From assembly GCF_000092205.1 (NCBI RefSeq), contig NC_014216.1, positions 806,001-870,000 on the forward strand: 64,000 bases of DNA, given 5' to 3'. Positions 14,744 to 17,861 of this stretch are shown here, in pieces. Numbering within the stretch: the first letter of the stretch is position 1; each line of letters starts with the position of its first letter. The notes under the pieces are model-generated. The model had not been told where the DNA came from. It worked only from the letters and a program-made list of their open reading frames with translations, and did no database searches. Source of the stretch: Desulfurivibrio alkaliphilus AHT 2. GTDB taxonomy: Bacteria; Desulfobacterota; Desulfobulbia; Desulfobulbales; Desulfurivibrionaceae. Made by a program: the position numbers and the translations under genes.

Positions 14744-16462
14744 CTACGGCCGGGGCAGGCATAACTCTTCCAGGTAGTTGATGGATTGCAGATAGTTGAA
14801 GTCCGGGCTCTGCTCGCTGGTATGGCAGCGGCGGCAGGTTTCGGCTTGCGGTCGCCGGATGACGCCGGGCGTTGCTTGGGGCTGGTTACGGGTGGCCACA
14901 TGTTCCCGGCCGGGACCATGGCAGGTCTCGCAGCCCACCCCCCGCAAGGCTGAGGGCAACGACAGCGCCTGTACCTCGTCATCCTGGTAGTCGACGGTTA
15001 CGTGGCAGGCAATGCAGGCCGGGTCGTACTGGCGCTGCCGCTGTTCCAGTGTCTTGTAGGCCTGGGCATGGCGGCTCTGCTGCCAGTTGGCGGTTTGCGA
15101 CTGGTGGCACTGGGCGCAGGCTTGCCAGCCCAGGTAAGGGAAATCCTCCCTGGTCTCTTGTTGCTGACGGTTTTTTATGGCCTGCTGACGACCGATCTCG
15201 TTGATTTCCTCATTGATTGCGGCCACCAGCCGGAGCATTTTTTCATCTTCCGGGTAGTTATGGTCCAGGTTGAAAAACTGGTTATGGAAACTGCCGGCCT
15301 GGCGTTGCCCCGCCGTTTCTTCCAGCGCCGCCACACGCTTTTTCAGAGCTTTGATCTCCTGCTGCAGCTCCTCCTGGTAGGCCGCCATCCGCTGCCGGTA
15401 GATCTTTTGGCTCTCGGTTTTTTCGGGTTCCTCGGCAACCTCGGTGGCAGAGTGCTCCTTTTCCACCCATTGCAGTGAACGTTGCAGGCTACGCCACTGC
15501 CAGTTAAGGCGATCAAGCTCCTGGCGTTTATCCTCCAACTGGGCCAGTTCCTGGTCGAACCAGATTTGATCCGGGGTCCAGGTTATTTCCATCAGGCCCA
15601 GCCGTTTGCCCTGGCGGCCGACGGAGGTGATGACGGTGTTGTTGACTCGCCGGGGGCGCAGGTTGGCCTCGCTGTTGCGGCTGGCTACGATGAGCAGGTG
15701 AATTTCGGGAAATTCGGCGGCAATAGCCTCGTTCTCCGTAGCTTCCAGGCCGGACAATAACACCAGAAAATCGCTTTCAGCGCTGAAATGCGCCACCTGT
15801 TCCGGCAGTACCTCCCGCCAGGGTCGTAAGGCCGGCACGGCAGGTTTGTCGGCTTTAGCCGCCGGGTCGGCAGCTGTGGTTGCATTTATTGTCGAGGGGA
15901 GGGAACCGGTTAAAGCGATGACCCCAACTTTGTTGCCGCCTTTCTTCACCACCACTCCCGGGGGGAAGGGGGGCTTGTTGCGGGCCTGGTCGATGAGGTC
16001 GGCACTGAGCCAGAGCGGTTGCTGGGACTCGGCTGTGATGGTCAGCAAAAAATCGAGCCCGGCGGCCAAATCCAGGGCGTTGACTCCCACCGCGTCAAAG
16101 CCCATGTCTTGATAGGCGACGACTATGCCCCGGGCCGTGGCCCGGTCCTGTTGCTGCAGGCCGGGGTTGAGCCGTTCCCGTTTAAAGAGCAGGGCCCCGG
16201 CGTCCAGGGCTAAAGTGTTCGGGTTCTGTTGCCTGGCCAGGTTCAGTTGCGCCGCTTTTCTGGGCAGACCGCCCAGTTGTTCCGATACTCAGCCGCAGGG
16301 TTCGATCTCGCCCCGCACGTCGTTGGAATAAAGCAGCAGCAGGTCGGTCGTCGACTGTGCAGGGGATTGCCGGTCGGCCGTGGTCAAGGTCACCGCCGGG
16401 CCGGCGAAAACGGCTGCCATTGCCAGCAGAGCCGCTAGCCATACTTTAGGGGTATTAATCAT
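14744..16462 (-). CDS. Tetraheme cytochrome c with UGA-encoded selenocysteine
   Basis: I read this as one 572-residue gene with an in-frame TGA at 16289-16291 decoded as Sec58. The N-terminus is a signal peptide (MINTPKVWLAALLAMAAVFAG), then LLLLYSNDVRGEIEPCG-U-VSEQLGGLPRKA, a metallophosphatase/5'-nucleotidase-like start where homologues usually have EPCGC. After the TGA the frame stays open for the rest of the gene. Residues about 60-240 continue the nucleotidase-like fold. A coiled coil (about 260-360) follows, then a cytochrome c554-like part with four CxxCH sites (CAQCH, CIACH, CETCH, CRRCH). A fitting SECIS hairpin lies downstream of the TGA. Export and heme attachment imply a periplasmic redox role; the substrate is unknown. 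Ordinary gene callers would give only 14744-16105. Confidence 0.85.
16252..16291 (-). promoter_or_regulatory. Bacterial SECIS element and its UGA codon
   Basis: On the minus strand the TGA (16291-16289) is followed 12 nt later by CTGGGC-GGTCT-GCCCAG, a perfect 6-bp stem with a GGUCU loop (16276-16260). Counting the U of UGA as 1, GGU falls at 22-24 and CUG at 25-27. From memory this matches the placement of GGUCUG in the E. coli fdhF SECIS. SelB recognises such loops. The hairpin encodes Leu-Gly-Gly-Leu-Pro-Arg, so the protein motif and the RNA signal coincide. Confidence 0.85.
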
Positions 16463-16475
16463 TTTACAGGCCTCG

Positions 16476-17861
16476 CTAGGGTTGGGTCTTTTTTCGTTGG
16501 GCCAGGATTTTGCGCCATTTTTCCAGTCGCTCCTTAACCAGCGCCTCATGTCCGCGGTTGGTGGGATGATAAAACCTGGTGCCGGCCAACTGGTCCGGCA
16601 GATGCTGCTGATCCACCAGCCCCAGACGGTCGTCGTGGGCGTACTGGTAGTCCTTGCCGTAGTTAAGGTCCCGCATCAGCTTGGTGGGGGCATTGCGCAG
16701 GTGGAGCGGCACCGGCAGGCTGCCGCTTTTTTTGATGGTGGCCAGCACCTGGTTGTAGGCGGCGTAAACGGCGTTGCTTTTGGGCGCGGTGGCCAGATAA
16801 ACCACTGCCTGGGCCAGGGCCAGTTCACCCTCCGGGCTGCCCAGCAGGTGGTAACTCTCCCGGGCCTGCACGGCCAGGCCCAGAGCCTGGGGGTCGGCGT
16901 TGCCGATATCTTCCGAGGCAAAGCGGATCAGGCGACGGGCGATGTAAAGCGGCTCTTCCCCGGCGGCCAGCATCCGGCCCAGCCAGTACAGGGCCCCGTC
17001 GGGGTCGCTGTCGCGCAGGCTTTTGTGCAGGGCCGAAATCAGATTGTAATGTTCCTCGCCGTCGGCATCGTAGCGCAGGCTGTGGCGCTGAATGGCCTCT
17101 TCCACCGTGGTCAGGCCGATTTGCACCTCACCGCCGATCTCTTGGCTTGCAGTCTGTCCCCGGGCCTGATCCTGGGCCAGGGCGGCGGCGATTTCCAGGC
17201 TGTTGAGCAGGCTCCTGGCATCGCCATCGGCGATGCTGATCAGGTGATCGGCGGCCTCCCGGCTGATCTTCAGGCGCAGCTTCCCCAGGCCCCGTTCTTC
17301 ATCACTCAGAGCCCGTTCCAGGATGATCTGTAGATCTTCCGCCGCCAAGGGGTTGAGCACAATCACCCGGCAACGGGAGAGTAGCGGGGCGATGACATGA
17401 AAAGAGGGGTTTTCGGTGGTGGCCCCGATCAGGGTGATCAGTCCGGCCTCCACGTGGGGGAGAAAGGCATCCTGCTGAGATTTGTTGAAACGGTGGATCT
17501 CATCGACAAAGAGTACGCTGCCCCGGCCGCTTTCCGCCCTGATGCGGCGGCTTCGTTCGACAATTTCCCGGATCTCCTTGACCCCGGAGAGGACCGCCGA
17601 GAAAAAGACAAAATCCGCCCCGCTGCCGCCGGCCAGAATCCGGGCCAGGGTGGTTTTGCCGGAACCCGGCGGACCCCAGAGCAAAAGCGATGGGAGGTAA
17701 CCGTGGCGGCTTAAGCCGGCGAGCAGTTTGTCGTCAGCCAGCAGATGGCGCTGGCCGACGAAATCATCCAGCCGGGCTGGGCGCATCCGTTCGGCCAGCG
17801 GGGTGGTAGGCTGGTCCCGCTGGGGTTGGTTTTTCCTCGCTGCCGTTTTGCTGTTGCTCAT
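16476..17861 (-). CDS. rarA: Replication-associated recombination protein RarA/MgsA
   Basis: The 461-residue AAA+ ATPase has Walker A GPPGSGKTTLA, Walker B VLFVDEIHRFNK, sensor GATTENPSF and the C-terminal MgsA domain (RRLIRFASEDIGNADP, LPVPLHLRNAPTKLM). It acts at stalled replication forks. ATG 17861 overlaps the TAA of the upstream pseudokinase-WD40 gene (TAATG), a tighter start than the alternative at 17900. It ends 14 nt before the start of the selenoprotein cytochrome, so the three genes could share one transcript. Confidence 0.94.
   Translation of the reverse strand: MSNSKTAARKNQPQRDQPTTPLAERMRPARLDDFVGQRHLLADDKLLAGLSRHGYLPSLLLWGPPGSGKTTLARILAGGSGADFVFFSAVLSGVKEIREIVERSRRIRAESGRGSVLFVDEIHRFNKSQQDAFLPHVEAGLITLIGATTENPSFHVIAPLLSRCRVIVLNPLAAEDLQIILERALSDEERGLGKLRLKISREAADHLISIADGDARSLLNSLEIAAALAQDQARGQTASQEIGGEVQIGLTTVEEAIQRHSLRYDADGEEHYNLISALHKSLRDSDPDGALYWLGRMLAAGEEPLYIARRLIRFASEDIGNADPQALGLAVQARESYHLLGSPEGELALAQAVVYLATAPKSNAVYAAYNQVLATIKKSGSLPVPLHLRNAPTKLMRDLNYGKDYQYAHDDRLGLVDQQHLPDQLAGTRFYHPTNRGHEALVKERLEKWRKILAQRKKTQP

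Follow-up and report, generated by a model that had tools for sequence, protein, structure and literature searches.

A UshA-like tetraheme protein gene with an in-frame UGA codon predicted to encode selenocysteine

The window, a stretch of 64,000 nucleotides (C1:806001-870000 of a single-contig genome of 3,097,763 bases), carries on its minus strand a gene whose apparent stop codon is almost certainly read as selenocysteine (Sec), as judged from its sequence. We give a probability of about 0.95 to the reading that the product belongs to the UshA-like (seleno)protein family NF041198 (UshA_like_PCGU), with UGA codon 58 decoded as Sec, and that it would be exported and pass electrons by means of a Cys-Gly-Sec redox pair and four hemes. 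Against the NCBIfam profile NF041198, which has a cut-off of 275 bits, the joined protein scores 638 bits (E 8e-192), over profile positions 2-518 of 519, and has EPCG-TGA at codon 58, where the family carries the Sec or Cys of its PCG-U/C (CxU) motif. The preliminary description had placed the protein outside the standard listed selenoprotein families, which is wrong: a UshA-like COG0737 protein with CxU, represented by 76 Sec sequences in GOS, was reported in a marine survey of 2008 (PMC2398784), a UshA-like selenoprotein with the exemplar WP_013162925.1 stands in a review table (PMC9312934), and NF041198 is listed in a further one (PMC13188914). The window protein is an ordinary member of a known family whose Sec has already been described, and the present result is a confirmation, with no discovery. 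The main text of a 2025 study on iron-oxide respiration by Desulfurivibrio alkaliphilus makes no mention of a nucleotidase-like protein or a selenoprotein.

The minus-strand frame from 16462 to 14744, as read from the sequence, contains a single TGA, at 16291-16289, and is otherwise open to its final TAG codon at 14746-14744. The likely natural start is the ATG at 16462 (MINTPK...), which has GAGG upstream and lies 13 bases past the stop of rarA; the same frame runs further upstream to a listed ATG at 16549, and that stretch overlaps rarA, which ends at 16476. With the start at 16462 the TGA becomes codon 58, and the joined protein is 572 residues long; it probably begins with a signal peptide, and it contains four CxxCH motifs. 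These features agree with the preliminary description, which had two open frames sharing one minus-strand frame, separated by a single TGA and no other stop, with the TGA at residue 58 of an exported tetraheme cytochrome; export is supported by the probable signal peptide and the heme content by the CxxCH motifs. The coordinates are collected in Table 1.

Table 1. Features of the UshA-like tetraheme selenoprotein gene, in window positions
Feature	Position	Strand	Basis
Complete gene, UGA read as Sec (predicted), 572-aa UshA-like tetraheme selenoprotein	14744..16462	-	Reading frame; NF041198 match of 638 bits; own-genome match with one TGA inside
Probable N-terminal signal peptide, about residues 1-24	16391..16462	-	Hydrophobic stretch in sequence; model helix 7-25
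5'-nucleotidase/SoxB-fold head, about residues 39-295, degenerate metal site	15578..16348	-	Profile and structure matches; ligand alignment
UGA codon 58, putative selenocysteine, in EPCG-U (C56-G57-U58)	16289..16291	-	Sequence; TGA kept in 29/30 fetched loci including the window's own
bSECIS hairpin CUGGGC-GGUCU-GCCCAG, 6 bp, nt 16-32 from the U of UGA	16260..16276	-	Geometry; recoding test; conservation
Tetraheme domain, four CxxCH, about residues 445-553, cytochrome c554-like	14804..15130	-	Pfam PF13435; CxxCH count

Relatives of the protein at E<=1e-40 were found in 116 of the 395 genomes of the phylum sample, and most of the matches listed there carry exactly one TGA. Alignment of homologues at residue 58, a check proposed in the preliminary description, revealed UGA at PCG-U in 29 of the 30 fetched loci, or in 28 of 29, from many families, once the window's own locus is set aside. 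Two other relatives, L069 (TGC) and L078 (TGT), have a Cys codon at the Sec position, the former belonging to the same order as the window organism; in several other stop-free matches the fetched stretch did not contain the motif. The TGA indeed sits last in EPCG-x, as first described, and the accompanying statement that this position is normally Cys has to be corrected for the family, in which nearly all sampled members have Sec and few have Cys. The one fetched locus that lacks UGA, L031 (G111:C168:34-1512), reads CCC TCC GGT CGA at the motif, with Cys56 replaced by Ser and Sec58 by Arg (CGA). Both redox residues are lost together and all four hemes are kept, which suggests a heme-only form or a recent loss.

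Some sequences around this core set deviate in other ways. L041 (G088:C2:307667-308734) has two in-frame TGA codons in its matched stretch and no CxxCH, and the second TGA could be a second Sec, the true gene end or a sequence error. L074, L077 and L079 are related proteins in which EPCSTC or EPCGTC takes the place of PCG-U, a spacing that to some extent recalls the CxxU of UshA-like family 2. Within the window, none of the other in-frame TGA codons mimicking a SECIS, which were inspected by eye, resembles a Sec motif.

The hairpin downstream of the UGA has the CUGGGC/GCCCAG stem and the GGUCU loop given in the preliminary description, and GGUCUG occupies nucleotides 22-27, counting from the U of the UGA codon. 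The RNA folding that it proposed as a check recovers the hairpin, yet the signal alone is weak (z -1.2 on 40 nt). In the window gene alone, the hairpin is marginal against 2000 synonymous recodings for the same amino acids, 5% of which fold as well and 8% of which have as long a stem (p 0.05 for energy and 0.08 for stem length). Moreover, part of the signal is forced, because the codons of the conserved protein motif LGGL make one stem arm and the loop. Across the 29 UGA loci, however, the stem always keeps five or six of the six standard pairs, with paired changes in the form of GC/UA and CG/UA exchanges, and the loop of 5 or 6 nt begins with GG. Several relatives on their own reach p 0.01 or less in the synonymous-recoding test, and the stem is weak in some others, such as L038 and L043. 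A chance origin is untenable, because the UGA and the stem are conserved across distant genomes. A search of the 1 kb surrounding the UGA against Rfam found no SECIS, and the bSECIS was assessed from its geometry and its conservation; it is by conservation that the hairpin shows the hallmarks of bacterial selenoprotein genes, namely a conserved bSECIS that closely follows the UGA on its 3' side and has a G in its apical loop.

The genome possesses the four Sec genes that the preliminary description had suggested looking for, including tRNA-Sec (selC, 73 bits), selB (351 bits), selA (633 bits) and selD (384 bits). Altogether, the conserved UGA and hairpin, this machinery and the membership in NF041198 support the initial assignment of Sec to the UGA. 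We hold with high confidence that this is a real selenoprotein gene, in which Sec insertion at UGA 58 is predicted: the hairpin that closely follows the codon would direct SelB and Sec-tRNA to decode it as selenocysteine. In addition, selD (L066, C1:2436357-2437286) has its own in-frame TGA and probably encodes a selenoprotein itself, a known state of SelD. The genome also harbors an ExtKL-type multiheme cytochrome with one in-frame TGA (L086, C1:2793023-2794201; NF040886, 476 bits), which is a second multiheme selenoprotein.

The AlphaFold model of the joined protein (mean pLDDT 76, pTM 0.75) has good confidence in the head, moderate confidence in the heme domain and low confidence at residues 60-62. 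As the preliminary description had proposed, the head is nucleotidase-like in fold: its best profile match is 3ivd (E 1e-30), and the predicted model matches 3ivd_B with a Z of 32.0 and an rmsd of 2.3 over 282 residues. SoxB comes close behind the 5'-nucleotidases in structure (Z 29.5-30.4) and is a weaker match by sequence. Nevertheless, the head does not have the dinuclear metal-ligand set of UshA/5'-nucleotidase enzymes. The motif NDxH is changed to NDVR, GD to GA, GNHE to NALD and SH to SG, and GHxH is lost, with R, A, AL, G and SR at positions 50, 90, 129-130, 238 and 261-262 in the sequence alignment, the last two being least certain; the only metal ligand kept is Asp48 of NDxH. Across the family, the ligand motifs other than the Asp of ND are mostly replaced as well. 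As the metal ligands are largely gone, a phosphohydrolase role is unlikely.

The C-terminal tail matches PF13435 with 59.8 bits against a gathering threshold of 20.8, and its four counted CxxCH motifs bear out the proposed fusion of four hemes to the head; some members, such as L033 and L036, have no CxxCH in the same open frame. The gene is flanked by rarA upstream and by ppaC downstream on the other strand, and this order recurs in related genomes of the same order, so the arrangement is best read as inherited synteny and not as a pathway. In a single other family, represented by L051, L053, L054 and L055, the gene adjoins multiheme cytochrome genes, one of which weakly resembles NrfH, while another has a borderline match to cytochrome b561. 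These multiheme cytochrome neighbours, seen in one lineage, fit an electron-transfer role.

Most likely, the protein is a periplasmic redox protein that couples Cys-Gly-Sec to four c-hemes, and no nucleotidase. It would be exported and would have four c-type hemes attached, while Cys56-Gly57-Sec58 would form a redox pair beside the remnant of the 5'-nucleotidase metal site, and electrons would pass between the hemes and a small substrate in the periplasm, which may be a compound of sulfur or selenium. Both the redox role and the substrate are what we infer from these features, and the literature search found no tested function for the family. We tentatively suggest, as a possibility, that a metal-dependent hydrolase of the 5'-nucleotidase/SoxB fold was converted into an oxidoreductase that depends on selenium, is wired to hemes and acts on a periplasmic sulfur (or selenium) compound.

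A sharper form of this explanation, which we regard as rather doubtful, has the protein act in a SoxB-like manner on sulfur-carrier substrates, with Sec/Cys attacking or reducing protein-bound or sulfane sulfur. SoxB is among the best structural matches and the organism is probably a sulfur-metabolising Desulfurivibrio; however, the SoxB match is no better than those of ordinary 5'-nucleotidases, and neither rarA nor ppaC, next to the gene, offers a connection to sulfur. It is improbable that the protein is still a metal-dependent phosphohydrolase (nucleotidase) with fused hemes and a structural Sec, since despite the strong 5'-nucleotidase fold and profile matches the ligand motifs are replaced, and Cys56 and Sec58 go together, both in their conservation and in their loss from L031. 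Least probable is that the TGA really ends translation or stems from a sequencing error, in a split gene, a pseudogene or a normally Cys-encoding gene, for although two relatives have Cys and the hairpin alone is marginal, the same codon is TGA in nearly all other fetched loci, the downstream frame encodes a conserved head and four hemes, and the Sec machinery is complete.

The gene illustrates neatly that a selenoprotein can lie concealed behind a UGA in a routine gene call. The family to which we assign it is common in the phylum and combines a Cys-Sec pair and four hemes with a degenerate hydrolase fold, and the biochemistry of a single member would bear on the role of many others.

Compared to known systems, the window protein shows no substantive difference from NF041198, which it matches over the full length and with which it shares the PCG-U motif and the COG0737-type head with heme tail. 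UshA-like (seleno)protein family 2 (NF049981) is matched only weakly, over the N-terminal 88 profile positions (34 bits versus a cut-off of 140), and has the motif CxxU, unlike the CxU of the window protein (PMC13188914). The ExtKL multiheme (seleno)proteins (NF040886) are another multiheme selenoprotein family, separate from that of the window protein, whose score against their profile is 9.8 bits with a cut-off of 250. Cytochrome c554 of Nitrosomonas (1bvb) shares the tetraheme PF13435 domain, a likeness limited to the tail, and the score against the cytochrome c554 equivalog is 43 bits versus a cut-off of 400. UshA, CD73 and the Thermus protein 2z1a have the metallophosphatase-type head fold in common with the window protein, in which, by contrast, the metal ligands are nearly all lost, CxU is added and a heme domain replaces the C-terminal nucleotide-binding domain.
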